Part shown: positions 17,455 through 58,200 of the stretch, one piece after another
Numbering within the stretch: the stretch's first letter is position 1
Layout of the letters: each line of letters opens with the position of its first letter
DNA from: Cryptosporidium bovis
Taxonomy: Eukaryota > Apicomplexa > Conoidasida > Eucoccidiorida > Cryptosporidiidae
DNA length: 64,000 nt
Reading direction: 5' to 3'
Assembly: GCA_009768925.2 (NCBI GenBank)
Contig: VHIT02000049.1
Location: 117,159-181,158, forward strand
Notes under the pieces: generated by a model
Seen by the model: the letters and a program-made list of their open reading frames with translations, nothing else
The model's database searches: none
What the model was told of the DNA's origin: nothing
Translations under genes and position numbers: made by a program

Positions 17455-17526
17455 GCCTTCGTAGCATAGTGGCAATGCGTTCGCTTCGTAAGCGAAATAT
17501 CCAGGGTTCAATCCCCTGCGTGGGCT
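17455..17526 (+). tRNA. tRNA-Thr (anticodon CGU)
   Basis: 72 nt. Acceptor GCCTTCG/CGTGGGC with one T-T mismatch (pair 5-68) and one T-G pair. D arm GCAT-AGTGGCA-ATGC, anticodon stem TTCGC/GCGAA with loop TTCGTAA (anticodon CGU at 17487-17489, decoding ACG), T arm CAGGG-TTCAATC-CCCTG. Intronless. A run of six T (17528-17533) follows as terminator. Confidence 0.92.
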
Positions 17527-23545: not shown

Positions 23546-23619
23546 TACGGGCTACGAGACTCGAACTCGTGATCTCTTGCGTGTAAGGCAAGCGTCATAA
23601 CCACCTAGACCAAGCCCGC
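23546..23619 (-). tRNA. tRNA-Val (anticodon UAC)
   Basis: 74 nt. Acceptor GCGGGCT/AGCCCGT (first pair G-U), discriminator A. Anticodon stem CTTGC/GCAAG with loop CTTACAC; anticodon UAC at 23583-23585. T arm ACGAG-TTCGAGT-CTCGT. T5 on the minus strand at 23533-23537 serves as terminator. Intronless. Confidence 0.94.
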
Positions 23620-30336: not shown

Positions 30337-31200
30337 TTATTCGAATACCTCCGAACATTCTTCAATTAACTTGGCTAAGTAAGGTTCTTTCAATATTGTG
30401 AAATGATTTCCTTCTGATAAATGAATTAGACAAATATTTTTCATTTTGCATATATTTTGCATATTCACTACTGCAAAAGTTCCGTTGCTTTTGAATGAAT
30501 CACCAAAAACTGATGATTTAGAAAGTACTAAAAACACTTTGTCAGCTATTTCTGAACTAGATACTGATAGGTCAATACACGCTCTGAAAATAGCGTCCAA
30601 TCTCTTGAAAGTATTATTTAATTCCACTAGTTCCTCAGATGAAACTTGATCGGAGCCATTATTTAACAGATTGTAAAATTTTACCATGGAGTTAGGTTCT
30701 TTAATCAGTGACAGGATATAACTTGGAAGGGAATTTTTGAGTATATTAGACTCACTAATCATTTCCTTGATTGTGGTAAATAAAATCTCGTTGATTTTGT
30801 TACCCTTATCTTCGGATATCTTTACTGGTATTAGTGGATCAATTAGCAATATCCTTAAACCTTCAATATCTACACTCTTCATTAGTCCATAATATACTTG
30901 AACGGCGATACTGCTGAATAATGACCAACTTCCAATAATAATTTTACTTTTTTTGGAGTCTTGTAAACCATCCAAATGTTCCTTCACCACAAAGGATGTG
31001 ACGTATGTTAGAGAACTGATAACATTCTCAGTTTTTGAATCAGGAATTGAAACAACTACACATCTATATTTGTATTTTTCTTGTATACCAATGCAAATCT
31101 CTTGTAAGTCAAAAATGAGTAATTTATCACAAATAAATACCAATAAATCTGTCGAATTATTGTGGTTTTTACTGTTACATTGCATCCCTGAAAACTCAAA
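30337..31200 (-). other. PKS C-terminal thioesterase/alpha-beta-hydrolase-like segment
   Basis: About 290 residues after the reductase. Seen: SKIIIGSWSLFSSIAVQVYYGL, a strand-elbow-helix with Ser11005 (30922-30924) in the place of the GWSLGG serine of type I thioesterases; LRILLIDPLIP just after it (compare LxLLDPxxP); helical lid-like residues; KVFLVLSKS; and a C-terminal LSEGNHFTILKEPYLAKLIEE that matches the thioesterase ending GDHFTML with His11178 (30403-30405). The Gly residues after the serine are replaced (LFS), so activity is uncertain. Confidence 0.65.
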
Positions 31201-34200
31201 ATAATGATCTTTTATTGAATTTCCGATTTCTATATCTTTGAAATTTACCATTTCCAATGTTTTGCTCCAATCATTTACTAAAAAGAAGTTGAAACACGTT
31301 TTGAGGTAGTTTATATTACATGGAATGTGTTTAATATCATTAGATTTATTCATCAACTTATTTGTATTGCTCATGTCAAAATATGGCATTATTGAATCTG
31401 CTGGTTTTTCTCTAACAAACATGTGTTGAAGTGGTCCAAGAGGGTGATCTTTATTTAAAGAGGTCTCTTGAATTAGTTTCTCAACCCACTGGTCAAATGG
31501 AATAAGTTTTATGTCTATCCCAACTAATTCTAATGCTTTTTTTATATCGTACATTGAGGCCCACTCTTTTGAGTCAAGATTAAAGTCATTGTTTATCGAT
31601 AAAATTGGATTTGATGCTCCTAAACAACAAATTTGACTACAAAAATCAACAGGGACCAGGTGTATTGCCATCTCTGTGATTGGTAAGCTTCCCATTAAAA
31701 TGCAACCTTTAATAAATGCATTTGGGAGATCCGATATATTTGAAGCTCCCGTCATGCTATTTCCTCCTATTCTTCCAGGTCTATATATTGCTATTGGAAA
31801 TCCTTGTATTCTTGCATCTTTAATAAGCCTCTCAGCCGCCCACTTTGATTGTGAATATCCCAACATCAGTGTCTTGTGATGATTTCCTTCAAAATCATTA
31901 TATATTACAGGATCATCTTCATAGAAAATTCTCCTTCCATCTTCCAAAAAGTATTTTCTTTCAATGAATTCTGTGTTTTCCAGGCCATTTAGGTAGGGCT
32001 CAACTGGGGGTTTTTCAATGTGATCATAAAATACACCTAATGTTGAAATATGATGTATCGGAATTAAACAAGAGTTGCACTTCCCCTTTTCAGTACAACA
32101 ACTATTACAAACATTAGGTGCGGATGATAGTTTCAATATTTCCAAAATACTCAATACATTCACTTTCTTTATATGGGAGTATGTTGATGTAAAGTTAACT
32201 ATTGCACCAACATTAATAATACAATCAATCAAAGACGCAATATCATTGTATTTTGATTCATCTATTCCCATCATTGGTAATGAGCTATCTCCCTCAATTA
32301 TCACAACATTATTCTCAATTATTGATTCAATGTTATTAATCATATACTTTTTCATACAATCACTTAATCTTTCTTTTCCAGCTGATTCACTTTGGCATCT
32401 TACCAAACACCAAATTTTTATCTCTTTATTCAATTTAACAAGATTTTCAATTACACAAGTTCCCATAAAACCAGTACCACCTGTTAAAAATACATTTTTT
32501 AAGGAGCCGTTATTTCCAGAAGGTAACCTAATTCCATGTACAAGAGACTTGTCATTAGAATCTTTTATTGATATTTCTTTGCCAAGTAAAATGTCATCTC
32601 TTATTTCGTTCCACCTTCTTTCTTTTGAGGATGAAACCTCCTTTATCGTTTCCCCAAATAATTCTTTTTTTACTATTCCCTCGATATAATCAATCACTTC
32701 ATCTACAGTTGGGTTGTCTAACATCAGCATTGTTGGTAACTTTACTCCCAAATATTTATATATTAAGTTCCTGAACTCTATTGCCATTAGCGAATCTATT
32801 TCAAATAAATCTTGTTTTTCTAATATTCCAAAAACTTCATAGCCTATTTGTTGTAATATTTCTTCTATGTGTTTTCTTACATCAGAAATACCTTCGAACT
32901 TCTCTCTAATTAAATCCACTTCGTCTCTATCAGTTTCATTTCTAATATTTTCATTAAATAATTCACAGAATAAGTAAGGAACTCTGTCTTCGAAATTTAT
33001 AATGAATTCCTTCCAATTCATTTTGGAAATTGCAATTTCGGAAGGTATATTATTGCAAACATCTTTTTCCACCAGATCGAAAATGAATGAAAGAAACCTC
33101 AAGCACTCATTATTTAATAAAGGCTCAATTCCTACTATGGAATGATGCTGAACCAGCTCTTTTGCCATACCTTGTTCAGCCCAAGGACCCCACTGAATAC
33201 TCAAATCTAAATGTGTAGAAAAATTATTATCTTTTCTAAATTTAATTATACTATCCAAACATGAATTTGCCGATGAATAATTGTATTGTCCAAAACTCCC
33301 AAATAGCGATGAAATTGAAGAAAAACCTATATAGAATACTAATTTATACGGGAGTAATTTTTCTATTGCCAAGTGTAAATTGATAGCACCATAAACCTTT
33401 GGTTTGAAAACTTTTTCTAATATATCAATGGTATGATTTTTAATTAGTGTATCATTTATTATCCCTGCCGCATGTATTACACCAATTATCTTTTTGTTAT
33501 TATTTGAACTATCTGTAATAATATTCGTTATTGTTTCCTCAACAGATGCTAAATTAGAAATGTCGCATTTAATAACATTAACATTTGCTCTAAGTTCATT
33601 AATTTCATTCCAAGTCTCCTCTAGTGAATTTGAAAACCTTCCGGAACGTGAAAGTAAAATTATATCTTTTATTCCTCTTGATTTTAAAAGCCATTTTGTA
33701 ATAAGTAGCCCAAGTGCACCAGTACCACCGCTAATAATTACTATCCCACTCAAGTTTTTATTTTTAATTGTAGAATTGTCATCATCAAAAGCTTTGTCAA
33801 TTAAATATGGTTCGATCACTGGAGTAAATAACTTCATTTTGCCTTCGTTGGTATCAATAACAATATCCTGTAATACCAAGCTTTTTTTGTCATTTAATAA
33901 ATTAGGCACAATTCTGAATATCATTTCACTATATTTTAGTTTATCCAAGTTATTTATTTGTATGTAATAAATATTCTTTCTCAATTCAATTCTTGCAGTT
34001 TTACATAACCCAAGAATTCCTCCTCCAATAATACCTCTCTCAATGCCATATGATAGATAATTTGTTGTTTTAATAACCCAAATATCTTGATCCTTTGTTG
34101 AGTTTATAATTAATATAGTAATGTAATGAATTAGCTCCACTTCATCTCCACAAAAATCATCGATCACAAGTATTAATTCTTTATAACTGTTTTTAAGTAT

Positions 34201-37200
34201 TTTAAGTAATTCAGTGACACCAGTTACCAACAAAAATTTCGAGTAAAATTTCGTGTCAACATTAAATTCATTAAAACCCAACAATATTCTTTTATCTGCA
34301 CCAGGAATTTCGTCAACATCAAATCCAGAATCTATCTTTATTTCAGATACTTCGCGAAGTGTATTTTTCCATATCATTTTTTCAATTGCCTTCAAGCTTA
34401 ACTTTTCGCCGAATAAATCATTCATCTTGTCATTCTTCAACTCATTTATTGTATGTACTGAATATTCTGTTGAAAAAATCCTTCTACCCAACATATCTTG
34501 AACATTTATTGAATCTGATTCTATATTTACCAACAAATATTCTTGGTATATTGAAGAATCAATTATTTCTCCGAGGACCAAATTTTCAAACGATAACTCG
34601 AAATCATCATGTTTAGTTTCAATAATACTTTTTATTCTCAACAACTCTAAAATTAGTTGAATCAACACTGGATGAATGTAAAACCCTGAAAAAGATCTTG
34701 ATAGAGATTTTAGGTTGTCCTTAGAAAAGAACAAATAACTCAAATAATCGTTTTTTTCAGATACTAAAATATTTATACCAAATTTAGAAGAAATTGTATT
34801 AATTGTGTTTAAATGTTTTTCAATTGCAAAGCTTTCAAAATTTGTTGAAAAGAAATAACTTTCTATTTTCTTATAATTTGTTGTTTCTATTATTGTATTC
34901 CCTTTCGAAAATGAATCTTCATTATAATTCAGGGTTGCATTATATCGACGTTTGTCAGTAGAATTTAACTCAAACTCTGTTACAATTTTCCTATCATTTT
35001 TAGATTTCAGTTTAAGATTTACACTTTGCATATTTTTTAGTTCGGATAATTTAATATTTTCAACGATTATCTCACAGTCGGTATACTTTCCATATCTTAG
35101 TGAGTTAAATAAGTCACGATTAATTATTAATCTAATCCCGGCATTTATAAATTCCAAAATAAAGCCTTCCCTGTATATCCCTATCATTTCTCTTCCAAAA
35201 CTATTTAAGTGTGCAATTTCATCACTTAGATCTACAAAAGGATGAAATAAGATATTGTTCCATGGATAACGCCTCATTTTCTGGAATTTAAATGCTTTAT
35301 TGTATATATTTGACTCATTTTGAGTTTTAAAATGTTCATTATTAACTGTTCTAACTAAATTATTAATATTATCTACTTCTGATTCGATTTTAGAAGATGT
35401 CAAAGTATTCAGACACTTGACATTTTCACGACTTTCTCTAGGAATACATTGTACGCAAAGTTTTGTAAGAGTAGGCTGAGGTCCAACTTCAATTAACGTT
35501 TTATTATCATTTTGTTTCAATAAAGAAGTAATTGCATCATAAAATAGTACTGGTTGAACTATATGTTCAGACCAATATTTTGAATTTCTTAAATCAGATA
35601 TTTCTATCTTACAACCTCTTAAGGTAGAGAAAAATTCAATATTAGTTTCCTTTTCAGAAAAAACGATCTCTTCTTGTATAAATAAATCAACTTTTTCCGA
35701 AACATCCACCATTAACTTTGAATGAAATGCATTTTCTACATTAAGGAATTTGCCATTACCATTGAAATTTTCCAAAATTAAATTTAGATTTTGCTTTTCT
35801 CCGGAAACAACAATGCTTTTTGGGCCGTTAATTGCTGCTATTGATACTGAATCCTCATAATTTTTCAGAATTTTCTTGATTTCTGAGGGCGAAATTCTCA
35901 ATGCTAGCATCCCAGCTTCTCTTACTTCTGAATTTAACATATACCTCGCTCTCACATTGATCAATTTCAAAGCCTGATCTAAATCAAGAACACCAACAAC
36001 AACAGCTGCACAATATTCCCCTAAGGAGTGACCAATTACAATATCAGGGACGATCCCCCTACTTTCTAATAGTTTTGTTAGAGAGTATTCCAATGAAAAT
36101 ATTGCGATTTGTGAATATTGTATATCATTTATTCCATAAAACCCTGTTTCAGTTGAGCCTGCTCTTGTATTTGGTGTAGTAACATCCGGATACAAAACAC
36201 TAATTAATGGTTCAGGTAAGCATTCATCTATACATTTAGCGCACTCTAAAATTGAGTTTCTGAAAACAACTTCGCTTTCAAAAAGTTCCCTTCCCATATT
36301 TTCAAATTGACTGCCTTGACCAGTATACATAAAAACCAGTTTATTATTTGACTGACTTTCGAGTTTTTCAGGTAAATATTTCCCGATAATTACATGAGCA
36401 TTTGTTCCACCGAAACCAAATGAAGAAACTCCTCCATAATTATATGATCTGATGTAATTCTTATTTGGAAGTACGAAATTAAAGTCTGAGGTATCAATTA
36501 GTGGATTTAAGGTTTTAAAGTTTATATTTCTTGGTATGAGTGATTTATTAAGCATTAGTATCATTTTCATTACCCCTGCAATTCCGGAAGCACCTTCAAG
36601 ATGCCCAATATTCGTTTTTACTGCAGTGATAAATAATTGGCCTCTCTTTTTTTGACCAAATACATTTTTTATTGCACCAAATTCAATGGGATCACCTAAA
36701 GCAGTTCCTGTTCCATGAGTTTCAATAATTGAAATATCTTCAAAGTTTAATGAAGAATCAATTATTGCCGATAATATTACCTTTTCTTGAGCAGGTCCGT
36801 TTGGTGCAGTTAATGACGCACTCCTTCCATCTTGATTGACAGAAGAACCTTTTATTACAGAATAAATATTTTGTTTACTTTTAATATTAAATATTTCTTC
36901 ATTCAAATCTCTATTTCCTTTATTATCTATTCTGCAAAGAACCATTGAACAACAACCCTCTCCTCTAACGTATCCATCCGCATCTTTATCAAATGTTTTA
37001 CATCTTCCTGTAATAGAAAGCATCTTCGATTTAGAAAAGGCTATATATGCTTGCTGAGATAATAATAAATTAACACCTATCACTAGTGCAATGTCACATC
37101 TTTTTCCCCTCAAATTTTGAATTGCTAAATCCATAGCTACCAATGATGAGGAACAGGCAGTGTCGATTGTCATTGAGGGGCCATTTAATCCAAGATTGTA

Positions 37201-40200
37201 AGAAATTCTATTTGAAATGATCGATAATGCAACGCTTGTCCCTGTAAGCGGTGAAACCAAATCTGATTCTACTATATTACTTCCCTGTATCAATGCCCAA
37301 TCAGTATTTCCGCAACCAACGAAAACTCCCGTTAATGTCCCTTTCAAATTTGACATTTTAATTTGTGCATTTTCTATTGATTCAGTTGCAAGCATCAATG
37401 ACATCCTTTGTTGTGGGTCTATTATTGAAGCCTCTAAAGGTGAAATACCAAAGTAATGTGAGTCGAAAAGTTCAATATTATCGACAAAACATCCGTGATT
37501 TACACAATAAGTTGGACCCAAGTCGTCTGGATTTTCGTTATAATACCTTTTATGATCCCATCTATTTACCGGAATACTCGAAACACAGTCTGATCCAGAA
37601 ACTAACATTTTCCAGAACAAATCAGGATCCTCACTTGAGCCTGGAAGTTTACAGGAGATACCAATAACTGCAATTTCAAAATTATTTGAGGTTTTATTCC
37701 TATAAAAAGTATTTTCTGACACTTGTTCGTTAGAAAATCCGTCAACTTGAGAAATAATGAAATTTTTTACGCCGGAAATTGTTGGATAATCAAACATTAA
37801 GGTTGTAGGTAATAATATTCCCGTAGTTTTAGATAAAATATTTCTAAATTCAATCGCAGATAAAGAATCAATTCCAAGTTCAAATAAAGGCTTTTCCAAA
37901 ATATTTTCTTCCTTAATGTCTATTTCCAACTCTGTCATAATATTGCTTATTATGTCTTTAATTAAGTTTAAAACGTATTCATCCCTTTCTTTGTCATTCA
38001 ATCCTCTCATAATTTGACTAAAAGCGGACTTATTATCATTTTTATCAATAACTTTTTTATCAACATTTACTAAAATTTTTGAGACCGATTTAGGTAAATT
38101 TTCTGACAATTTAAACCAATCTACGTCATTAATACAAATTACAGGATATTTGGAACGGTTATTAGAATTAAAAACGTAATTAATGGTTTGTATTGCAGTA
38201 AGTTTATCTACACCCTTAATTCCAACGGACTCAAACTTCGAAATTAAATTGTTTTTTGCCATTCCTTGTCCAAACCACGGTCCCCACTGCAAACTGATTC
38301 CAGATAAACCTAAACTTAATCTATGCCCCATAAAAGAATCCATGAAAGAATTAGCTGCACTATAATTTGTTTGACCGACATTACCAATTAATCCTGAAAC
38401 AGATGAAAACGCAACAAATAATTCCAAATTTATTCCCAATAATTGAGTGATATAATGTATATTTAAAATTCCATTAACTTTTGGTTTATATACTGAATCA
38501 AAAGATTCCTTTGTTTGTTCAAATACTTTTTTATCATCTAGCAAACCAGCAGCGTGTATTACACCAATTATTGGACTTTCACCCAAATTACTTTGAATTA
38601 TTAACTTTATTGCATTAAAAACTGAATTCAAATTAGATACATCACAATCAATAAATCTAACGTTTGGAAATACACACATACTGTCTTTATTTGAACTCCT
38701 TGAAAGTATAACTATATTCTTAAATCCATTCGATAATAACCATGTAACTGTAAACCTACCCAAATCACCATTTCCGCCTGTTACAATTATGGTACCGTCT
38801 TTATAACTTAAATTTCTACTTAGAATTGGATTTTTTATGATAACTTTTCCTATATGATTTGCTTTTTGCATATATCTAAATCCTGATGTACATTCAAACT
38901 TAGCAAAGTTGTCATCATTTTCATTAGTCATTGAAAATTCATTTAATGGTATTACTGACTCCTGACAATTTTCTATTCTAGTTTTTATTTCATCTAGTAC
39001 AATTCCAAACCATTTTGGGTCATTTAATATCATGTCATCAAGTGCTAGAGTTTCATAGTTGACTTTTGGATTGATTTTCAAGGCATCTTCTTTTGATAAA
39101 ATATTTATCTTTCCAAGTTCAATAAAGTATCCATTTTCAGATAATAATTCAAGGCTATAATTAATATAATTTCCGGATAGGCAATTAATTACAACATTTA
39201 ATTTTTCATTTTTTAAAATTGTACTCATTTTTTCTTTAAATATCTCTGGGTTTCTACTTGTCGTTATGAATCTGACACCCAAATGTCTCAAATATTCCTC
39301 TTTTCTCTTGTTACCGACAGTTACATATACAATAGCCCCAATACTAAGACAATAATTAACAGCAACTATACCAACTCCACCTGATGCAGCATGAATTAGC
39401 ACTTTATCACCTGATTTTATATTAGCTATTTTTCTCAAAGCAATATCTACAGTTGAAAAAATGGTTGGGATCGAAGAAGAAATTGAAAAATCACAGTTTT
39501 TAGGGATTGTTCTACATGTATCTCCAATGGTGACTATAAATGTATTTAAACAACCGGGAACCATTGCATAAACTTCGTCACCTACTTTCAAGTGTTTGAT
39601 TCCTTTTCCAACGCCGAGAATAATACCTGAGCAATCTGAACAAGGTGGTCCTGGGTCTCCTGGATACAAATCTAAAACATTTAGTACGTCTCTAAAATTT
39701 AATCCTACAGCACAAACTCTTAATAATATTTCATTTTCTCCAAGAACACCCTCTCCAATTAAATTATCATCAGAGAAGTAATTAAATTTGTCCAAACAAT
39801 CTATTACTTTGAATTTTTTATCTGAATTAACATATATCAATTCTTCTTGAATTCCTAAAGTTAAATTTGAAATCGTACCTCTTTCTGAAAGAATAACTTT
39901 ATAAGGACCATTCAAACCAATATCTAAACCATAAATTCTCGGAACAAATAACTTATTGTTCCTTACAACAAATTCTGAGTCATCTGAATTTGAAACTGAT
40001 GCCAAAATATTGGATAAGTAACTTCCACTCATTTCAGAAATTGAAGTTTCTAAATCAAGTAAACAAAGATTAATTCCAAATAATTCATGCCTAGCTGAAC
40101 GGATAAGTCCCCAAATATCTGACCCCATAAATCTAGTATTATTTGTATTAAATGAAATAGTATTTTCTGTAATAAATAATACTTTTCTACTCGGAGTTAT

Positions 40201-43200
40201 GTTTAAGTCTGTATCAACCAAACATCTGAGTAACTCCACTATTTCAAATCCAATAAAATGTGAATTTTTTATATTTATCATTTTATCAACAACAAATGCT
40301 ATATTAAGGTCATCTTTTTTTGAGGAATTTAGAACACCAAAAAGTTCATCCTTATCCTCAAATAATAAAAAGTCCTCAACTAGCATTTCTTTGTTAAGAC
40401 TTAACTTATTCGAATTAATTAACCAAGAATTTTTTGTTTTATTTGCACCTTCATCTATATGTCGAACCCAATTTAATGACCAATACTTCTCTATTTTGTC
40501 ATGCAAAAACTGTGACTCACCAGATTTTATGCTAGTTGAAATGTTTTTTACACCTCTGTATCTAATTCCCTTAAATTCAACTAACAAGCTATTGTTTTTT
40601 TCAGAATATATTTTAATATCTGCAAGAACCTCATTATTTTTCACAGATAAAACTTTACAGTGGACCCATGCATCAAAAATAACATTCCATGGAATATTAT
40701 TGGTGATTTCTGAAATTGAGAACGGAACCCAAATGAGGTTGTTTTCTTCATTCTTTATATTATTTATACAAATAAAGCATGAGTGTAAAGCACCGTCCAT
40801 TAATGTTGGATGTAAGATAAAGTTGTGATCAATTAACTTCAAAGACAGAACTGAATCACTTGAATCATTTACACGAATATTTTTACTTGGACTAATTCTA
40901 ATCTTTGTTACACATTCTGTTTCTGATTTCAATTTCCATGCTTTTCGAATTGTCTTAAATTTGTCTCCATAAGAAATTCCCATTTCATTTAACTTTCTAT
41001 AAATAATAGAAACATCTATTTCCTCTTTAACATTCTCCTTAATTTTACCAATCATTGAATTACTTTCTAGATAATCTTTTTCTACTATTTCAACAATTTT
41101 TCCGGTTACATGAGTATATTTGCTTGTTTTTTTCACTTCAGAAAAAACTTTAAATTCATTTGTTTTTGTATCTATATGAGAAATCAATTTGATTTTATCA
41201 TTTTTGTTTATTATCAGTGGTTGCTCAAATACAATATTACTTAAAATGATTCTCAATCTTCTTTTCGAAAAAGATATCTGATTATTATTGCAAACAAATA
41301 TGTGCCTGACTGCTGCAAAAATACTGTCTATATATGCAGCTGCTGGCCAAATGATTTTTTTATCAATGATATGATCAGCAAACAAATCATTCACTTCATC
41401 ATCAAATTTAAGAACAAACTGAACTGAGTTAGATGTTTTTTCATTTATTCTCCTAAATAATAATTTCTCTTTTTCATCATTAACTTTTTGATTTCCATCA
41501 ATAAATATTTTTTCTGATATTAAAGGATGTTTTGTATCAGTCCAACAGAAATTTTCGTGTCTCGAATAAGTTCTTTTTTTATTAAATAATTCAATATTTC
41601 TTTTTGATTCTTCTAAATTACACTCAATAATCACATGAGTATTTGTTCCACCGAAACCAAAAGAAGAAACGCCACCGAAAATGGAGTTAGAATCTTCATT
41701 AGAAATTATAGTTTCATTTTTATTTGGGAATACCACATTAAAATCTTTTGTTTCAATAAGTGGATTAAGGTTTGATAAATTTGGTATTGGTACTGCAATT
41801 CCATAATTCATTACAAGTAATAGTTTTAAGAGGCCTGCTAAGCCTGCAGCACCTTCTAGATGACCGATATTTGCTTTTATTGCTCCAATAAAAAGTGGGT
41901 GATATCTATTTGAAAAAATGGACGGAGCTGAATCGCCATATTCTCCATTAAAAACATATTTAAGTGCATTGAATTCAATAGGATCACCTAACTTCGTTCC
42001 AGTTCCGTGAGCTTCAACGTATTTAACTTGGGATGGATGAATATTTGCTTTTGTAATTGCTTGTTTTATAACACTTTGCTGAGAAGGTCCATTTGGGGCC
42101 GTTATTATCGCACTTCTCCCATCTTGATTTACGGATGTAGATTTCACAATACCGATAATGTTATTTTTATTTTTTCTTGCGTTCGGTAGACCTGTTAAAA
42201 GTAATGATATAGACCCTTCACCTCTTCCATATCCATTTGCTTCACTATCAAAAGTCCTACATATTCCGTCTTTAGAAAGCATATTTGCTCCACAGCATGC
42301 CATAAATGATTGAGGAGCAAGAAGAAGATTAACTCCACCTACAATTGCATATTCAATACCACAGTTATTCAACTTCACAACTGCAGAATCAAGTGCAACC
42401 AATGAAGATGAACAGGCGGAATCAATTGTAAATGAAGGACCTTGGAACCCAAAAATATATGATACTCTATTTGAAATAATTGAGGGTGAAATTCCCGTTC
42501 CTGTGAACGGTCCTGGTAGAATTGAAGCCATGTTTGTTATTATAGACCAGTCATTCGAAGAACATCCTATATACACTCCAGTAATTGATTTAGAAAGGGT
42601 ATCTATCTCTAGACCAGAATTTTGTATTGCTAGAAAACTAGTTTCTAATATTAAACGTTGTTGAGGATCAATGTAATTTAATTCACTCGGTGATATTTTA
42701 ACATTTTCAACATCGAATAATTCGACACCCTCGATAAAATTACCCATATTTGTATATATTCCTGAGGACTCACCGTTGGAATAGTATAAATCATTTTCCC
42801 ATCTGTTATATGGTATTTCACCCACACTATTCTCGGAGTTATAAAGTAAATCCCATAGTTCGCTTATTTCAGAAATCCTCTTTGGTAAACGACATGCCAT
42901 TCCAATTACAGCGATACCTAATTTTGTACTATCAATTTCAAACACAATTTCTGAAACTTTGTTGGAATCCAAAGATTTGAATGACTTTTCATTTATATAA
43001 TTTGCAAGGCCTCTAACTGTTGGATAGTCAAATAAAACTGTATTTGGTAGAGTGACTTCAAATTTACTACATATTGAATTTCTGAATTCAATGGCAGATA
43101 AAGAATCTGCTCCAATATTGTGCAATGAATCATCTATCTCAGGGTTTTCTAACAAATTGAAAATTTCACAACATATCTCATTAATTGTATCAATGATAAA

Positions 43201-46200
43201 TTCCATTCTTTTTTCTTCAGGTATTGTAAACAAAACAGAGTTTTTACTTATTTCAACTTGTTCTTTTAAGTTCGTAACCTCTTTAAGCAATGTATACCTT
43301 ACGGGAGTATTTTTAGTGAAGCTGTTCCAATTTGCTGGCTGAATTGAAATTATTGGGGGTATATCCAAATTCTGATCAAAAATTATAGATTTCAAAATAC
43401 TTAACCCAAAGTTGTTATTTATTAATGATAAGCCTATCTTATTTAGATGATTTATTAATTTATTATTTAGGAGTGCCATCCCTTGTTCTCCCCATGGTCC
43501 CCATTGTAAGCTTATACCAGAATATCCAATACTTCTTCTATATTCAATGATTGCATCTAATGTTGAATTAGCTCCAGAGTAAATTGTTTGACCAATATTC
43601 CCTGTAAGTGAACTAATTGAGGAAAATCCAATGAAATAGACACAATTTTTGTTTATCAATGAATTGTGTAGGTTAACTAGTCCACTTATTTTTCCTGAGT
43701 TTACTTTTTTTATTGAATCCTCAGTGTTATTTTGAATATTTGAATCAATAAGTACCCCTGCCATATGTATTATTCCAATACTTGAGTATTTCTCAGACAA
43801 CTTATTTATTGTATTTCTAACTTGAGCTTCTATTGAAACATCACATTTTTCAACGTATATTTTTACTTTGGTGTCTTCACTTAGTTCCATCCATTTTCTT
43901 GAATTCATTATTGATTTCTCTGGGTCTCTACTAATTAAAAACACGTTTTCAGCTTTCATTTCTTCAATCAACCATTGTGTGACAACTAACCCCAGTCCAC
44001 CTAAACCACCTGTTATAATATGGCATGTTTTCAAATTCTCTTTATTTATTACTTCGTTTCTTTTTATTTCATAATACGATAACCTTGGGGTGTATATATT
44101 ATTTCCACGTAGCACGAATTCAAATTCTCCGGAATTTTTTATTATTTCTTTATTAGAAATTATTTTCAGAATAATTTCTGATTGTTTCGTCGCAAGAAAT
44201 TCATTACTATCTTTTTTTTTGCAAAATAACGAATAATCGACGTCAATCGAGTAAATGTTTGCTTTGGAAACTAACTCTATCCTCGCAGACCTTGTAAAAC
44301 CCCATACCCAAGAAGTATATGGTTGAATGTTAGGATATTCGCTAATAAATATTGAATTACTCAATAAAAAGTAAATATCAAGGACTTTGTCATTTCTTCT
44401 CTTCTCTAATAAATCTTTTATTATTTTGTTACATAGAATTTCTATTTTCTCAGATAAGTCAAATATTGTATTGTCCAACATTTCATTTGAATTACAAAGA
44501 TTGTCAATACATATATTTAATACAATTCCTTCAATTTCAGAATTTAAATATATTTCAGTATCATTACTATATTTAACTACATCAAATATACCTTCATTAT
44601 TTAGCATTTCTAAAATGTAATTGTCATCTGTGATATTGAAGTCAACGTATAATAATTTATTCTTCTCCGGTTTCTCATCCAATAATATCAAATCATTCTT
44701 TTTCCATATAGTTTTCCATGTTTTACCTACTGAAATGGTATTATCCTTTATAATTTCACTTGCAGAAATTGAAACTACAAATTGTAATATTGGCTCACTC
44801 TTCTCAATTCCAAAATCGTCGATCAACCACATTTTTACGCTAATCTCGTTTTCAGATTCAAGCCTACATTCTAGCTCAATAGAATATCTAGAGTTACAGT
44901 TTAATTTTTCAAGATTGAATGACTCTGAAAATGATATTTTGCTCATTTTTTTAATTTTCAGATCTTTTGAGCCAATTCTTTCTTCTATTAATTTTGTTGA
45001 AGAATGTATCACCAAAATAAAAATACATGGATGAATTGACAGGCCAGACTCAAATCCAAATTCGTACTTCGGAACCTTAAACCTTATCCTATAGCAATAG
45101 TCATCATTCTTAACTGAATATATCAACTTATTTATTTTTTCTGGAATATTTGTATTTGTAAAAACGTCATTATTTTGAGAAAAGCTGGACCCATAAATGT
45201 AATTATCTTGTAATCTTCCTTTTTCCGAGTTATCGACAAGTAGTGAAGCAATTTTAAGTCCATTAGATGAACTAATTGAATGATAGTTATCTTTGGAACT
45301 CAGTTTTAAGTTGTATTTTTTTTCGCTATTAATGAGTAAATTTGTCAATTCAATAATACCTTCTTCCGACTCTATTATAAATTCAGTTATGTATTCATGT
45401 TTTTTTGTTACCACACTCATCAATGACTCCAGAATAAGAGAAATAACTATTAGCGAGCAATTGTTGAATTGAGTTTTACCATTGTTTTCTTCAGAGTATC
45501 TACTAAATAATGTTTTTGCAACATCAATATTGTATTCAGACGTCCCATTTTCCAATTTCAAGGGATGTTCGAAAGTTCTAAGTGGATATTTCTCACAAAC
45601 TGAAAAATTATCAGCCTTCTTAGAAATTTCAATGATCTCTTTAATAAAATCTAAGAAAGATTCTTTATTTTTAATGACCATTAATGTTTTATCCTCTAAT
45701 TTTTCTAGATATTTTTTATTTATATTTAATGGATTCAATATTATTGCTCTAGAATAGTTTATATTAATATCATCAATATTTGCAATAGAGTTAATCATTT
45801 CAGGTTCGCTATATATTCTAATACTTTCAAAGTTTTCACTAGTGACTTTATCTGGTTCAAGTTCATAAATTCTCAGTACAGCACTTTCTATCGTTTCCTT
45901 TCCAACAATTAAGTCTATAATCACCGAACCTATTCCTTTTGCAATAATTCCATCGGGATAAACATTTTCTGTAATCAATAAATAGTATAATGAGTAATAA
46001 AATGAAAATAGTGTTAAATTTATTTCACGAATATCAACAGAACTATGACTATTATTTATCACAAAGTTGTTCTCATTGATGTGTGAGATGCAAATTCCTG
46101 TCAATTCATTTATCAGATTTACGCAATATTCATAATAGAACTTAAATATTGGTTTGTTTGTGAGCAGACTCAAAATTTCTGTTGCTAGTAGTTTAATTTT

Positions 46201-49200
46201 ACTTATATTGAAATTGCAATACTCCTCAGAATAAATAACAAATAAGGTCCCAGAAATTACTAATGGCACTTTTTTGCTTACCTCTATTATTGCGTGTGAA
46301 TTAGTCCCACCAAAACCAAAAGATGAAACCCCACCGATATAAGATTGGCCCAAAGAAGTTGAAAGTGGAGTCTCGCTCTTTGGAAATACAATGTTTGTGT
46401 CACATACATCAATATGCTTATTTAATTCATTAAAATGAAGATTTGATGGTGAAACTCCATTCCTAAGTGATAGTAATAATTTTATTAATCCGGCAATTCC
46501 TGCCGTCGCTTCTAAGTGACCAATATTTGTTTTAAGTGCACCAATAACCACTTTATTTTGTGAGTATTTATAAATTGCTCTAATTGATTCAAATTCTATT
46601 GGGTCACCAAGCTGTGTTCCGGTTCCGTGTGACTCAATCATTGAAATATCTTCAATTTTAACTCTTGACTTCTCTAGTGCACTTTTTATAACTGAAATTT
46701 GTGACAAACTACTTGGAGAGGTGAGAGAAGCTGTTTTACCATCTTGATTTACTGCTGTTCCTTTTATTATCCCAAGTACTTTCTTATTATTAGGGTCAAG
46801 TTTATTCAACCTCCTTATAATTATGGTTGCAATTCCTTCTCCTCTACCAAATCCATTGGCAGATTTGTCAAAACTTTTGCATATTCCATCTGGACTTAAC
46901 ATGTTCGCCTTACTAAATACAAAAAATAAATTATGAGTTGTAATCAGTTGAGTTCCAGAAACAATGCCCATATCACACATTCCCATTGAAATGTAATTAC
47001 ATGCCGAATCTAATGCAACTAAAGATGATGAACATGCGGTATCAATTGTTATTGATGGTCCTTTAAGACCATAAATAAAGGATAACCTATTTGATGCAAT
47101 TGATCCCGCAGTCCCAGTTCCTAAAAATACTGAATTACCTTTCTTATTATTAAGCAAATGCAAGGACCAGTCAATATTACAAAACCCAACAAAAACACCG
47201 GTGTTTGTGTTTTTTATTGATTCTGCAGAGTAGCCACTTATTTCTAGTGCATCTGAAACTGATTCTAATAGGTGTCTCTGTTGTGGATCCATTATACGTG
47301 CTTCCGCAACAGAAATTCCGAACTTACTATTATTGAATAATTCCGAACCCAAAACTATTGACATGTTTTTTGTTATGCTTTCTGTCATCTTATCGCTGTC
47401 CCATCTTGAATATGGGATAGTATTAACACCACATCTACCTAAGATTAATGATTTCCATAGAGAAGAAAGCGAATTCACTCCATTTGGTAGTTTACAGCTT
47501 GCCCCAACTATTGCGTATTCTTCTCTTGGGGCTACATTGAACTTAAAATCATTAACTTGTAAGTTACGAATATCGTGTCCATTTTGAATATTTAACTCAA
47601 TAAAATAATTCGCAAGTTCATTAATTGTCGGGTAATCAAAAAGATTGGAAATCGATATTTCAAATCCTAATTCTTTCGACAAGCTGTTTCTTATTTCTGT
47701 GATTCCAAGTGAAGTAATACCAAGATCTCGAATTGGAGTTTTAAAAAGAATATCATCCGTGATAGAACTTCTAATATCTTCATTAATAAAACCAAAGACA
47801 ATACTTTTTATCTTTCTAGTGAGTTTTTTAAAATGTCCTTCACTCTCGTTTATTTCTCCTTTGAAAAGAATTTGTTCATAAAAATCAAGTTCCCTATTAA
47901 TCGAACATACTGAATAGCTTTCTAAAAACAACAATTCATTAAAATATTTTGTCTTTATTTCAAAGCTTGATACTTGACCATTATGTCTTCTATTTTCAAG
48001 GATACTAATATAGTCACCACAATTTTCATTTGCACTGAAGACAATGACAAAGTTTTTTAGTTGAAGGAATGTGGCAATTTCATGTATTATCCATGCTTCT
48101 TCTGTTGAACAACTATTATTTTCAATAATCACGACATTTAACTTTATTTTTGAAATGTATTCTAATATAAATTTGATCAAGTTTCTTTCAATCATTAAAG
48201 TCCTCTCTCCTCCATTTGTCAGTATTTTCGCTCCATTAACGATGGAAATGATATTATGATCCTCCAATGAGTTTATTGTAAATACAACTTCTCCAAAATG
48301 AATACTATCTTTTAGCGCAAGTAATCTATCCCAGCTAATTTTTTGAATAATAAAAGGAGTAATGTATGTGTGAATTTCACAACTATCATTAGTAATTTCT
48401 AAATATTTTTGTTTGTCAGATAATATATCAATTACGGAAAGTTCATAGTAAATAATGTCCGTTCTCACATTTTTAAACTCGTTTGGATAAATATGTTCGA
48501 TAAATATTAAATTTCCTCCATATTTGAGGCTATTTAATATTGAAGATTCGCCGCTGCCATCACTAATAATTGTTCCAATAACTAAATCATTATTTTTCAA
48601 AAACCTTTCCATTATTTCATTATAGCTCTTTTCATCGTCAATTTTTAAAACATTTTTTACACCAATAGTAAGTAAATACCTTTCAACAGTATCTTCTCTT
48701 GTGAAAACGATCATTCTTGCTTTTATTTCGAGCAAATAATATACTATTCCAAGAAAAAAGCTGTTTAATTTTAGATTGATGATAATATAATCATTAAGTG
48801 GCAATGCAGATAATATATTAAGAATGCTTTTTAAGATGGGTTTGACTATTGTGAGTAAAGATGCCTCTTCGTATGAAATATCAGGAGGCTTATTAGTCAA
48901 TGAACATTTATTGGTCATAATCAAAGCTCTTGATATATTGTTTGATATACCACAAACACTATCACCAGTAGTTAAGTTACTTCTTTCATCTAACACAGTG
49001 ACTACTTTTCCAGAGAAACCAAATAATATCCCATTTTTTGTATTAATTGGGTAGATAGAATGAGGTAAAATTTCTATCTGATTATATTCGACTTTTCCTT
49101 GACTTCCCGAATAATTGAATAATTCTTCAGTAAACGAACAATAATTTCCACACAATAAAGGATATAAAGTGGATAAACGCTCTAAATTAATATTAAAGTA

Positions 49201-52200
49201 GTTGATTGAAATAAATACTTTCCAATTATCTCTTATACCATACAACTTGTCATTACAAAATTCTTGTGAATACTTAAACAGAAATAAGGTTGAATGTTGA
49301 TAATTAATACTGTTCTTATTTAAAAATAAAACAATTTCTATTTTCTTATTATTTAAGAATCTGAAATCATTTATGAAGGATCTTATGTTATTTATTTTAT
49401 ATTTGTAATTATCAACAATTTCATTTGTTTTGTTGAATATCTGTTCTTCAATATTATTTGAAAGATCAACAATAAACTTTTCCATAATTATATTGTTGTC
49501 TTGATATCTAAAATTAATAGTTAAATTATTTATTGTTGAATCAAAATATTTTAATGAGTCACTATTTAATTCATTATTTACTGTGATATATTTAATGGTA
49601 CAATCTGAAATTAGCTTAACACCAGGGACAGAAAACCCAAGGTATATTTCTTTGTTGTTTAGATATTTTGTTTCAACGGACCATACCGACAAATTATATT
49701 TGTTATTAATCTTTTCTGTCTTGGACAAAATCAAGAAATATTTATGTTCTGTTGTTATACCATAATAATTCATTTCTGACATTTCAACTCCAGTTCCAGT
49801 ATTAATTTCAAATTCATTTGCAAATGAAATAAACTTTCTTGAGATATTCTCAGCTGTTGGAACTATTTCCTCAATTATAATCGAATAACTACTCTTTTCA
49901 ATTTTTTCATCCGAAACTTTTACAAATACGTTATCTAATCTGAAATCACTTCTATTAATAATCATATTATTTTTCCAATGGTAAGGCTTTCTCCTAAAAT
50001 TCTTGAATTGATTATCATATATATACTTAAATATATCAAAATTGTTCTTTTCAACACCAATTATTGCATGTGAATTCGTACCTCCAAAACCAAAAGAAGA
50101 GACTCCACCATAAAGAACATCATGATCACAATTTATTTGAACATTTTTTCTTGGGAACTGGATTTCACTTTTTTCATAGTTTATTTCTGGGTTTAGTTTG
50201 TTCAAATTGTTATTACCAATAACCATGGATTTGTGCAAGCTTAATAAAAGTTTAATTAAACCAATAATACCCGAAGCTGCAAATGGGTGTCCGAAACTAG
50301 ACTTTCCACTGCTTACAAACAGGGGATTATTTCGATTAACAGAACAATATGAATCGTATAAAGCAGATGCCTCTATTGAGTCTCCAATCAATGTGCCAGT
50401 ACCGTGTGCTTCAATAATTGAAACTAAAGATGGACAAATATTATCTTGGCTTGACAGTGCATTTATTATACATCTTTCCTGAGAGATTTTGCTTGGTGCT
50501 GTGAGAGATACTGATCTTCCGTCTTGATTTACAGCAGAACCGGAAACATAACCAAGAACCCTTTTATTTTGTTTTAAACATTCACCTTGTGGAAGTATAA
50601 CAATTGCTGCAACACCCTCTCCAATACCAAAACCATCTGCAGATGAATCAAATGACTTACATCTTCCATCCTTTGAAAGCATCATTGACTTTGAAAAAAC
50701 AACGAAAGTCGTTTTATCTAATATGATTTGTGTTCCTCCAATTATTGCGCCTGAGCATTCACCCTTTCTGATGTTCTGTATTGCAATATTTAAAGATACA
50801 AGTGAAGAGGAACATGCAGTATCTATAGTTAAAGATGGACCAGTAAGGCCGAACAAATAAGAAATCCTGTTTGAAATAATTGACGAAGACTGCCCTGTAC
50901 CAGTATATGCATTTATCAAATTTAGATCTGATAGTTTGTATACCCAGTCACTTGAACTACTGCCAATGAAAACGCCTAAATTTAAATTGGTTTGGCAATT
51001 TTTATTTACAAAACCTGCAACATGGAGTGCATTGTAACAAACCTCAATCATTAATCTTTGCTGAGGGTCCATTTGAAAAATCTCGTACTCATTTATTTTA
51101 AATAGTGAACTATCAAACAAATGTATATTTTCTATAAATGCCCCTTTGTTACAATAACTCTTTCCTGGCAAAATCCCATTTTCATCTAATGAATCACCCC
51201 AACTAAATCTATGCCAAGGTGATTCAATAATAAAGTCACTATTCGTCTCAAGAAGATTCCAGAATATTCCAACAGAGTTGTTTGACATTGGAAAATTACC
51301 ACCCAACCCAACTATGCACATTCTTTGTGATTCATTAAATTTAGTAATGTTAGTTATATTATTAAACCCTAAATTTTTGAAATATTTTTCCAACTTAAAT
51401 ATATAACCTTCTTTCTCACTATTTTCTTTATCATAGAATCCAATATCAATATCAGTATTTTCTATCGATGAAAATGTTTCATATAAATAATCTACAATCG
51501 AATTTACCGAACTGTAGTCAAATATCGTTGTTTTGGGTATTTCAACATCCAATTCAAGTGATATTTTATTTACCACTTCAATTCCACTTAAAGAAGTTAT
51601 CCCAATATCAAAAAGAGAATCATTTAGTGAATAATCTACTTTTCTAGGGAGTAATGAATCTATAGAATTAATAACAATTTTTTGAAGCCATTCTCTTCTC
51701 TTATCAGAGTTTATTTCACTTAAAACAGTTCGTTTGTTACTTCTTTTTGCTTTAACTTGAGTTAAGTGGTTTTTTATTTTGCTAATAAAGTTATTAACAG
51801 ATTGATCATTTTCTTTTTCATACTCTGTTTTCAATGTACTTTCGTCAATACACATATTCATCATCGAACCATTCCATTTTCCGTCGACTAAGTCACTAAA
51901 CAATTTGTACGTAGCCAACTTATCCTTTATGTGAGCACTAAAAACGAGACAACCATCTTTTATCCATGGAAAAAAGTTGTCTTCGATGAAGGATAATGTC
52001 AATGATGGTAAGTCCAACATTTCCCTCCTTAATGATATTTTCTCAAATATTATCTTGGAGTAACCATTGTCTTTGTTTTTAATTATACTTACTGAAAATA
52101 AAATTACAATGAAAAATCTTGGGTTAATGCCTAGGTAAGACATTATTTCGTTCATATTCCAAACTAGCTTCTTGGATGAGGTTTTTATTGGTTCATCTAA

Positions 52201-55200
52201 ATGAATATAACCTTCTATTTGCACATTTTTATGCTCAACTAAAATTCTGTCAACACAATTTAGCAGGGATACCTTGTCTTGTGAATAATAATCATATATT
52301 TTAATATTTTTTTCTATTTCAAAAAGTTTCTTCGGAATTTCATGGTCGCCGACATAACGAATTAAAACCAAGTTGCTGAATCCTATTGAAACTAAACAAT
52401 TAATAATAGGAATTATTCTTAAATCAAATTTTCCTGTCAATATTACAATGCTAGATTTATTATAAATCATTTTTCCACTTTCTTTATTGACATTTGGAGT
52501 TATAAATTCAATATTAAGTTCATTATTATGGTTACCTTTAAAATATTGTTCATTTAATATGTTCTTATACTCTTTGTTTTGTTCACAAGAATAAATTTTA
52601 TATCTAGGAATGTTAAATTCTCCACTAATTATTTTACTCTCGCAGTTACCTATTTCAATTATACAGTCAGGAATTAGTGATTCACGGAGTGAAATCTTAC
52701 AACCAAGTGATAAAACCAAATTAGAGACATTCTTTTTAATATTTCCAATAACGAAGATTTCAGTTTGTTTACTCGGTAATTTCATTTTAAAAATATTTGC
52801 TGCCATACTGAAACATAAATTCCCTGCAATATCTTGGTTCTTAACCTGACCTATCTGAATGACTATTTTATTATATATCTTCAACGGAATGTTTTCAATG
52901 GCGTATTGAATTGCTGGTAAATAGATTATATCATTCAAACCCAAATAAAAACTTGTTTTATGAATGTCGATAATGAACAACTTTTCAATTTCTACTATAA
53001 TTACATCTCCAGTAAATAATTTATCACCCTTATTAATATTCAAATTTGGTATAAAAGCATATAAACCTAAAATATCTGATTTTTTATCTGAGTGAATTAT
53101 TTTGCCACAATAAGATGAGTATTGATTAAATATATGTTCAATAACCACACAAACATTATTATTAGTTAAGTTAACACCACTTTCATAATTTCTCAAATCA
53201 AAGACATTGTAATTATCCATTTTATCGATAATTAAATCGCTGTAGTAGAGTTTCCCGTTTCTAAGACAGCACTCGTTATCCTTTTGATTATTTAAAATAA
53301 AGTCAATATGGTTAATATCATCCAAGTCTGTTAGATAAATGTATTTCTCACCTTTTCCTATTAATCCTTTTAAATAATCCCAAATAAAACGAGTTTTTAT
53401 ATTTACGGTTTTATTTTCAAAATTAATTGCGTCGGAAGTAAATATCCACCATGTGATAAAATTAGAATTCTTTGCCTTCATTTCTAAAGAAATAATTTCT
53501 TCGATTAAATTAATCTCGTTTGTTTCTATTTTTTTATCTATATTATTTGCTGGGAAATGATTTATTATTAATATTTTCAAATTAGACAGGCTAAACAAAT
53601 ATTTCTTTAACTCTGATATACCTGATACTAAATAAACCTCTGGATAGATGTTAATTAAAACATTATATACTTCTGGAGCAAAATAGACCAATATTTTGTC
53701 ATATCCATCATTTTTCTCATGATTTACACTAAGCTCCCAACTTTCTCGAAGTATAATATTATTTTCACAAATACTTTGCTGTGATGAAATACTTTCTATA
53801 TCTTTGAATTTACTTAAACACATATTTTTTATCTCAACTACTGAATTCTTTAGGTCATTACAGCTATAAAATAGTACATTCGCGGAAATACAGTCTTTCT
53901 TATTATTGCTTCCAACTACTATATACATTAGTATTTGATCCGTGTAATTAAACTCTGAAATACTAATAGAATCGATTTCAGTTGGTATATACATTGAATC
54001 ATGATCTATAATTTTATTAAAATTCGCTGTTAACACAATTGAATGAATACAAGACTCAATGATTTTTGGATGAATTTTCATATATCTATCAATTGAATAA
54101 AACAGACCCATATTGTTACCTGAGGGTTCAATATCAATGGGAAAAGCTGAAACATTTAAATTTAAAATTGTCAAAGAATTATTTCCGAATAATTTTATTT
54201 TTTTTATTGATTTATAAGAATCATCAAGATTATACTTCCTTAATTTAAGCTTGTCATAAATCTCATTTTCAAGTAAAAAGAAAATATCATCTTCATTTGA
54301 TTCCCAATTTGAAATTATCGGATTAGTATTTTCTGGCTCAATTATTTCATCAAAATTGATATTTGCAGTGATATGAATTTTTTCATTTTTTTTAATCATT
54401 TGCTTACTTTCGCTTTTATATGATGATATTTTAATTCTTTTATGTATATCAATTGTCGTTTTCAACATGTTTCTTTCTACATCAGTGTATCCTGAAAATT
54501 CCCATGGGGAAAATATTTTAATTTCACTCAGATTTAATTTATTATTTTCATATTTAATCGCCTTCTTATCTTTTGAGGTCATTTTTAATTGATATTTTAT
54601 ATCGTTCAATGCAGCAAATATAACCTCAAATAGTGCCATTTCAGGCATAATACTCAAACCGTTTCTTGAATAACCCCCAAAAAAGTTAATTATATTATCT
54701 GTTTGAGGTGTTAAATAGGAAAACTCCTTCTTTTCACTATTAGTTTCCTCTAAGAGTGGTGAAACAACTCTCCTTAGTAAGAATGGATGCATCATTTCAC
54801 TCCATGGGAAATGTAAGTCGCTTTTCAGGAGTTCTAATGAATTTTTTGTCGCAAAAGAATATCTATCGCCAAAAATTTGTCTTTTTAACTTAAAAATAAC
54901 TTCATCAACATTTATTTTTTCATTTTTATCCATTAGATACATGAAATTAGCATTCTTAATGATCGATCTTGAAGATGATTTTACCAATGGTACAAGTAAT
55001 GGAGTTGGCCCAACTTCTATTATACTTGCTATTTTAAAATCATTTTCTATAAGATATTTTTCTAAATTTATGATCATTGGATGAAATTTGACGGTTTTTA
55101 TCAACTGTTCAGACCAATATTCAATATTTGAGAGCTCGTTACTCACTTTTGACCCTAAAATAGATGAAAAAATCACAATATTATCATTTTGTTTATTAAA

Positions 55201-58200
55201 AGGCTTATTCATGAACATTTTTTCTAAGCTTTTACTCGTTTCAAGTAATAATCTTGAATGGAATCCTTGAGATAGGGGAATAACTTTACAATTGTTACTG
55301 GAATCCAATAATTCTAAAATTTTTTCAACCTGAGACTTTTCTCCACTGATTACACAATTTCTCGGTCCGTTTACTAGTCCTATATCTACTTTCAAAACTT
55401 CTTCTTTCGATAGTTTGTGTTCAAATTCAATTATTTTGGAATTAACTTCTTCGTATGTACGTCTCACTGCAACCATTATTCCATTATTTTCTTTCTGTTT
55501 TGATATCAATATTCCCCTATGGTATATTATTTCCAAAGCAGTTTCTATTGACATTATTCCTCCGACAACGGCTACTGAGTACTCACCAAGCGAATGACCA
55601 AATAAAATATTTGGTTCTATTCCTTCACTCCTCAATACCATTGCAATTCCGTATTCAATTGAAACTATTGAAAGTTGTTGATAAATTTCAACGTAGATAT
55701 CTATTTTTTTTGTATTTTGGCTATTAAACATGAAATCCTTTAGTGGAGTTTCAAGATATTTAGTGGTTAAATCTGAGCAGAGATCTATGCATTCCTTGAA
55801 AACTTTATTATTACAATAAAGATCTCTTCCCATATATTCGTATTGAGAGGCTTGTCCAGTGAACATAAAAATTATTTTCTCTCGATTTGTGCACTTCAAT
55901 GGATTTTCCTTCTCAAAACCCCTAGCAATAATATGACAATTCGAACCACCAAATCCAAAGGAGGATACTCCTCCTATTAAATTATTATTGCTTATTTTCC
56001 AAGTTGAATTTTCGGGAAAAACAAAGTTGAAGTCATCTGTCTGTATATGTGGGTTTATCTTTTTAAAATTCATCAAAGAAGGTACTGCACCAAAAGACAG
56101 AATGGTTAACAGTCTAATGAAACCTACAACACCGGCAGCACCTTCCAAATGTCCAATTTGTGGTTTTATTGTACTTAAAATTAGTAAGTCACAATTATTT
56201 CTTGTTTTAAATTCATTTTTATATACTTCCTTAATTGCTGAAAACTCGACTGCATCACCAAGTATTGTACCTGTTCCATGGCATTCAATATATGATGGTT
56301 TTAAAGAATAATTTTTTGTACTATTTCTTGCAGAGTTTAATGAATCAAGAAGAACTTTTTGTTGAGCAACACCATTTGGTGCAGTCAAAGATATTGATTT
56401 TCCGCTATGATTTGTTGAAGAACCTAATATTCTCCCCCAACACCTCCCTTTATTCATGTTTTTCGATGATAAAACCACAGCCCCACAACCTTCACCTCTG
56501 ACAAAACCATCTGCATCTTTATCAAAACTCCTGCAAACTGAGTTATATGAAAGCATTTTAGATTTTGAAAATATTATGAAATTGTTACAATATAGGTTCA
56601 GTTGTACTCCTAATCCAATTGCAATGGTACTTTCACCTATAGATATTGATTTTACTGCCTGATCAATTGCAATTAAAGAAGAGGCACACGCTGCGTCAAT
56701 TGTCACAGAAGGTCCCTTTACTCCCAAAGTAAATGAAATTCGATTTGATATTATTGACTTGGCACTTCCTGTACCAGAAAAAGCATTGAAAAACTCTCTT
56801 TTAGAAGATAAAATTGTCCAATCATCATTACACATACCTACAAATACTCCAACATCTGTATTAATTATATTCTTAGTATCAATTTTTGCATCAGCCAATG
56901 CAGAATAACAAGTCTCAAGAGCTAACCTTTGATTTGGATCCATGTAAGTGGCTTCTTCTCTTGAAATATTATATTTAGAGTAATTAAAAATGTCTGCTAT
57001 AGAAATAAAACCACCTTTCCTTGTATAGTAACTGGGTTCATTATCCTTAGAATTTCCAAACATTTTATCAACGTCCCACCTTTCATAAGGCATTTCACTA
57101 ACACAATCTACCATGCTTACCATATTGCTCCAAAACTTATTAATGGAACTTGCATTTCCTGGGACTCTAATTCCTAATCCAATAACAAATATGCTTTCAT
57201 TATAATTATCAGGTGTAATTCTATCTAAATGTCCTTTTTCCCTATCTATATTTCCGATATTTCCAAGAATTGTTTTTTCAATGAATGAACTTAACTCATT
57301 TATTGTAGGGTAATCTATTATTATTGTTGGTGGGAGATTTATTTCAAATTTTGAAGCTAATACATTCCTTAATTCGACTGCAGTTAATGAATCAACTCCC
57401 ATATCTATCAGTGGGAAGTTAGGATCCATGGAATCCAAATCAATTCCTATTGCCTCAGAAATTGATTTCTTAATATTATCATTGACATAACTGAATATTT
57501 GATCCCTTTCTAGCGATAATATGTCTTCCTTAGTTTCAGCTTTTAAGCTATCGTCGTTAACATCACTAAAAACCTGTGTAAATGGATTATTTTTTACTAG
57601 TGATAATTCAACTGGCTGAACGATAAATGTCGAAATATTACCATTTAAATATTGAGAAATAATTCCACCTATAGAAATCAAACCAAGATCTATTGAAATT
57701 GAATATATACCCATAGATTCTAGTATTTTATTATTAATATTGTTTTTTGCCATTCCTTGATTTTCCCAAGGCCCCCATTGAATTGTAAATGACTTAAGAC
57801 CAATACCAGAACGCAACTCTGAAAGGTAATCAATACTACTGTTTGCAGCAGAGTAATTTGTTTGTTTTATATTTCCTAATAAGGTTGATATTGAAGAAAA
57901 TGAAACAAAAATAGGTATTTGTTTCAGTTTTGAAATTGATATTAGGTGGAGGTTCCATGCACCAATTGCCTTTGGTTTAAAAACACTCATCAATGTTTCC
58001 TCTGTTTGGTTAATTATACTACCATCTGAAAGAATACCTGCGGCATGAATTATCCCAGAAATTTGATGATGATTCAGTTTATCAAACATATTATATACAG
58101 AATTTAAGTTTGAAATATCACATTCAAATATTTCTAAGTTAATTTTCTTCCTTTCATTCATTAATATTAACTTATCTAACATTGAATCACTCTTTCTTGA

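Follow-up and report, generated by a model that had tools for sequence, protein, structure and literature searches.

How a modular polyketide synthase (PKS) releases its chain when its terminal thioester reductase (R) is followed by yet more protein is the question raised by the end of a long reading frame in Cryptosporidium bovis contig VHIT02000049.1. In the window, by which we mean the whole 64,000-nucleotide stretch that was analysed, one stop-free frame on the (-) strand leads from the last acyl carrier protein (ACP) through an intact R domain into 300 further residues (10900-11199), here called the tail. Judged from its sequence, the tail probably descends from a type I thioesterase (TE) and works, or once worked, like one, in an unusual R-then-TE order. 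The features concerned are given below, with residues numbered from the first in-frame ATG within the window and not from the true protein start.

30337..63936, (-) strand: frame of the modular type I PKS, 11,199 aa when started at the window's first in-frame ATG
32683..32814, (-) strand: last ACP, residues 10375-10418, DSL motif with Ser10382 (PF00550, E 9.5e-08)
31240..32496, (-) strand: R domain, residues 10481-10899, motifs TGGTGFMG and GYSQSKWAAE
30340..31155, (-) strand: probable TE-derived, alpha/beta-hydrolase-like domain, residues about 10928-11199
30922..30924, (-) strand: Ser11005 in the beta5-alphaC elbow, the candidate nucleophile; SWSLF where TEs have GxSxG
30838..30840, (-) strand: Asp11033 following beta6, in LLIDPLIP, the candidate acid of the triad; 28 residues after the Ser
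30403..30405, (-) strand: His11178, candidate triad histidine (EGNHFTILKEP)

The first-pass annotation had placed TE landmarks in the right order after R, and these were found at the residues that it named, IIIGSWSLFSS at 10999-11009 with Ser11005, LLIDPLIP at 11030-11037, and GNHFTIL at 11176-11182 with His11178, the likeness being beyond chance; the triad Asp that it expected corresponds to Asp11033 of LLIDPLIP. In the final version of a three-block test, the top single sites of the tail were Ser11005, Asp11033, and His11178, in that order, and none of 3000 shuffles scored as high; other alignments of the tail with TEs picked out these three positions as well. Among 21 TEs outside the training set, one fell below the tail (9.1 vs. 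11.1). The discrete type II TE (TEII) orthologue of the same genome failed (-1.7), which we took to reflect its type II layout, so that the three-block test is type I specific. This test was constructed three times. The score of the tail in the first version, which used only 29, 10, and 18 block sequences, was matched by 3/400 shuffles, 0/103 PKS windows, and 33/117 windows of nonribosomal peptide synthetases (NRPS) outside their TEs; in the second version, scored as Z, it was matched by 0/1500 shuffles, 0/69 PKS windows, and 0/94 NRPS windows. Ser11003 was also considered as the nucleophile and set aside, with Ile at its -2 position.

The tail resembles type I TEs (PF00975) in the Ser-Asp-His order, the position of the Asp after beta6, a GNHFT-type His motif near the C-terminus, and its C-terminal place, as well as in the Ser-Asp spacing, which is 28 residues in the tail and in type I TEs and 27 in the NRPS TE consensus. 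It differs from them at the elbow, which departs from GxSxG, and in showing no loop that could be recognised as the glycine-rich oxyanion loop; its Asp and His lie 145 residues apart, it follows R where they follow an ACP, and its score is too low for Pfam to detect it. Both a PF00975 match and a GxSxG elbow were tested and neither was found; the tail is for this reason not classed as a member of PF00975.

Profiles built from several sets of TEs were then scored against the tail. One set drew on 10 plasmid records and comprised 24 TEs, mostly of type II (25 of 33 places, one near-identical sequence removed; te profile), and another comprised 100 NRPS TEs remaining after redundancy removal from the 120 proteins listed among 719 matches (t1 profile). 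A further 32 TE domains came from longer frames of plasmid records, some of them shared with the set of 24, and from these 18 were chosen by eye as type I, mostly with a modular-PKS look, the type being assigned by appearance. Controls were 280 overlapping windows from proteins of the 64-kb window and 5000 shuffles of the tail, together with 382 windows from 200 kb of another contig (C23) plus a fragment of the FAS1-like fatty acid synthase (FAS). With the 18-TE profile the tail obtained 8.4 bits, a value reached by none of the 280 windows (best 0.8), of the 5000 shuffles (best 3.1), or of the 382 windows (best 0.2), and the TEII orthologue obtained 11.1 bits. Since the 18 TEs had been chosen after the likeness was seen, alternative selections were scored. 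The full set of 32, reduced to its 30 non-duplicates, gave 3.3 bits for the tail (0/280, best 2.1; 0/5000, best 0.9; 0/382), the 23 TEs in frames of at least 2,000 aa gave 3.6 bits (0/280, 0/5000, and 0/382 as high), and the 18 TEs without the seven bearing GNHFT or GDHFT gave 13.4 bits, with no control as high; a mixed TE profile was matched by 0/280 windows, 5/5000 shuffles, and 0/382 windows. The selection of TEs thus increased the score without being the source of the result.

These results bear on the explanation that the tail is an unrelated apicomplexan C-terminal domain with coincidental TE-like landmarks. With both the 18-TE and the unselected 30-TE profile, 0/662 partly overlapping genome windows reached the tail, and three separate best sites coincided with the triad, both of which argue against coincidence. 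Several other results, however, weigh against TE descent and would suit an unrelated domain. Of the eight TE profiles, three failed to set the tail apart from the controls: the te profile (9/280 windows, 28/5000 shuffles, and 11/382 windows as high), the t1 profile (162/280, 1976/5000, and 240/382, respectively), and one built from the 12 other non-duplicate TEs, those not chosen for the 18, with which the tail scored -2.7 bits (58/280 and 67/382 windows, 367/5000 shuffles as high). The score was also concentrated in one short motif, about 7.3 of the 8.4 bits lying in the final 33 residues, where the His motif is located: when these were kept and the rest was shuffled the average was 7.3 bits, and when only these were shuffled it was -2.2, so the His motif carries the signal. 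The Ser and Asp blocks alone were near chance (54/3000 shuffles and 12/143 windows equalled the tail), and in the first two versions of the three-block test the middle block fell at Leu11031, not Asp11033. Moreover, the profiles and block sets that performed best were the last of several, and the 18 TEs were picked by eye. Alignment by hhalign found the correct Ser register with te (1/120 shuffles and 2/67 PKS windows as high), the His register with a profile labelled 'all' (8/120 and 10/67 windows), and nothing with t1 (27/120 shuffles and 36/69 windows as high); for TEII, the positive control, it gave no score.

Library and homologue searches with the tail gave no significant match. The PF00975 check that the first-pass annotation had proposed yielded no detection, this family not being reported at E <= 1 for C-terminal pieces of 899 and 299 aa. 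The other Pfam families and NCBIfam gave no significant match to the tail either, and among Protein Data Bank sequences there were only two weak matches, to designed or TPR proteins (E 0.6 and 2.2). Under whole-protein length limits, a protein database search returned 237 candidates, of which none reached E <= 10; with only the tail as query it returned 1532, again without a homologue; searches of genome contig and viral contig collections gave 31 and 4 pattern matches, respectively, none of them confirmed, and tblastn against plasmids gave no match at E <= 10. An unguided structure model of the tail was uninformative (pLDDT 33); a guided model was an alpha/beta-hydrolase, but it was led by TE sequences and is therefore partly circular. 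These negatives likewise belong on the side of an unrelated domain. Taking both sides together, we regard such a domain as improbable, and descent of the tail from a type I TE as quite probable on the sequence comparisons made.

Preceding the tail, the identity of R is clear. It matched PF07993 with E 5.2e-56 and 190.1 bits (cut-off 20.1) and TIGR01746 with E 7.3e-63 over residues 10481-10866 (213 bits, slightly under the cut-off of 213.35), and it carries the GxxGxxG and YxxxK motifs. A tblastn search of plasmid records with R plus tail found 92 records, each with less than 60% identity, and in the 30 of them listed no bacterial R match extended beyond query residue 430 (residue 10899 of the frame). 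Bacterial NRPSs with a terminal R from Nostoc and Paenibacillus have a homologous C-terminal R domain, as in the PKS of the window, and the two examined end no more than about 10 residues from the R match, with no later domain. Residues 10900-11199 are therefore extra. The first-pass annotation had begun the TE-like domain at 31200 (residue 10913), which is close; the R matches end by 10899 and the TE-like part starts at about 10928. Of 13 pattern matches to the same R in the genome contig collection, none was confirmed. Early in the tail, DHYFEFSG (31186-31209, (-) strand, residues 10910-10917) looks like the carrier-protein core DxFFxLGG without the attachment Ser; a comparable stretch occurs in 24/3000 shuffles. 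An ACP relict at this place was considered and set aside.

Whether a TE-derived tail would still hydrolyse its chain depends mainly on the elbow. Gly was found at -2 of the nucleophile in 100/100 NRPS TEs, 24/24 mostly type II TEs, and 18/18 type I TEs, and at +2 in 100/100, 24/24, and 17/18, respectively, one TE (L047) being present in two of the sets; since PF00975 served to find the plasmid comparison sets, these are biased toward canonical elbows. The tail has Ser at -2 and Phe at +2. The doubt expressed in the first-pass annotation about a missing second glycine was thus justified and understated, as both the -2 and the +2 Gly are gone. Thr at -2 occurs in some lipases, making Ser there tolerable; Phe at +2 is unusual. 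A glycine-rich oxyanion loop (TE-like HPxGG after the first strand) was not recognisable in the tail, LLVFICDKLL standing in its place. The sole +2 Gly exception among the compared TEs, a bacterial type I TE of Streptomyces atratus (NZ_CP108277.1) in which Cys is the nucleophile and the +2 residue is Ser (GWCGSS), offers a partial parallel to the elbow of the tail.

Because both elbow glycines are lost, a bulky Phe occupies +2, and the oxyanion loop is unrecognisable, we consider efficient hydrolysis less likely. That Ser, Asp, and His of the triad are all kept, in contrast, argues for catalysis and has to be set against a non-hydrolytic role. The kept triad favouring function and the elbow disfavouring ordinary hydrolysis come close to balancing, and given TE descent we lean slightly toward a non-hydrolytic role. 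A working TE in tandem with R, in which the triad would act by hydrolysis or cyclisation on chains that the last ACP carries, serving alternative release as acid or in-line editing of stalled chains alongside the discrete TEII, is possible and somewhat doubtful. It would fit a triad in order and with type I spacing, despite an overall identity to TEs of only 8-17%, and a GNHFT motif identical to that of three PKS-type TEs (L091, L081, and L099). It would also be compatible with the published assay of CpFAS1-R, the R domain of the Cryptosporidium FAS, in which only NAD(P)H was tracked and the released chain went undetected (PMC2995488), so hydrolysis would have been missed. Apart from the elbow and oxyanion loop, a discrete TEII with a canonical GHSMGG argues against it, as editing would then need no second enzyme. 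In this genome the likely CpTEII orthologue (L005:1303-2304) has GHSMGG and was the sole PF00975 match genome-wide, at 21.4 bits, under the cut-off of 26.4.

The lost glycines and the failure of Pfam detection would also fit a decaying TE relic, without present function after R replaced TE as the release domain. Decay is hard to reconcile with a tail that is stop-free throughout and a His motif that is well kept, or with the report (PMC2995488) that the C-terminal half is common to the R domains of apicomplexan FAS1 and PKS1, which is unlikely under neutrality; we regard a relic as very improbable.

The reading that we prefer is that the terminus is ACP, R, and a TE-derived domain. The chain would most likely be released by R through NADPH-dependent reduction, an activity suggested by the R motifs seen. 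The last 270 residues or so would descend from a type I TE with Ser11005, Asp11033, and His11178 retained in place, and the domain, without efficient hydrolysis, may hold or gate the long acyl chain that the last ACP presents beside R, serving as an ACP-docking and chain-length partner; it would be integral to the release unit as its C-terminal half. Taken as a whole, with a non-hydrolytic gating domain after R, this proposal falls a little short of an even chance. Rather unlikely is a two-headed release unit in apicomplexan megasynthases, with R fused to a non-canonical TE whose glycine-free elbow still works; if true, one chain could leave as an alcohol or aldehyde or as an acid (or lactone), and the TE head could additionally reject stalled chains.

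Human FAS terminates in an ordinary TE. For the parasite enzymes, the literature describes a different end. In CpPKS1 and CpFAS1 an R with GxxGxxG and GYxxSKWxxE ends the megasynthase (PMC2995488), as in the PKS of the window. Zhu et al. (2010) gave CpFAS1-R about 780 aa, with a motif-free C-terminal half that appears unique to the R domains of apicomplexan FAS1 and PKS1, and reported NADPH-dependent activity on acyl-CoA of C20 and longer, the released chain never being detected (PMC2995488). That account gives the C-terminal half no fold or motif, whereas here the corresponding CpPKS1-like stretch is assigned a probable TE ancestry. According to Guo et al. (2019), both megasynthases use R and not a type I TE, and a discrete CpTEII exists (PMC6568194); CpTEII is an alpha/beta-hydrolase thioesterase, as the tail is proposed to be by descent, but it is a separate protein with GHSMGG. 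Within the openly licensed literature, searched mainly through titles and abstracts of the papers listed, no TE-like description of the C-terminal half of apicomplexan R was found. The present reading would thus assign a TE ancestry to a stretch unexplained since 2010, and a TE-derived domain in the release unit would weaken the case for alcohols or aldehydes as the only products to leave. With a worn, unannotated TE-like tail after R, the product released and the manner of its release seem more open than assumed.

The synthase itself was placed by its wider context, in one genome of 9.06 Mb and 43 contigs. The frame stays open upstream to 63999, without a stop as far as the window edge, and the end of the window is the end of its contig (C6), inside the PKS (61000-64000). 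On contig C37 a 2,244-aa frame (L007:1-6732) that runs off the contig edge matched AMP-binding, ACP, KS, DH, and ER; it is likely the N-terminal part of the same PKS, whose 5' part would then lie on another contig. With six KS in the window frame and one on C37, the two frames come to some 13.4 thousand residues with seven KS, in agreement with CpPKS1, given as 13,411 aa and seven modules (PMC7464705). An AMP-ligase loading unit, seven KS modules, a terminal R, and one intronless frame make the synthase CpPKS1-type, the join of the C6 and C37 frames across contigs being one that we infer from sizes.

The main Pfam matches of the last module were KS, AT, KR, ACP, and R, the last two of which were also matched when only the final 899 aa were searched. 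In the roughly 560 aa between its AT and KR (residues 9500-10063; 33748-35439, (-) strand), neither DH nor ER was matched at E 1e-5, and the chain arriving at R may therefore bear a beta-hydroxyl. The FAS1-like frame of 2,378 aa (L006:2447-9580) runs off the end of contig C28, and no later part of it, as a further KS or an R, was found in the assembly; a PF07993 search of the rest of the genome returned only two epimerase-like proteins (C21 and C23) and not the R end of FAS1. The apparent absence of a second R is therefore probably an assembly gap, and there is consequently no paralogue tail for comparison. Three tRNA genes were also located in the window by Rfam.

17064-17138, (-) strand: tRNA gene
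17455-17526, (+) strand: tRNA gene
23546-23619, (-) strand: tRNA gene
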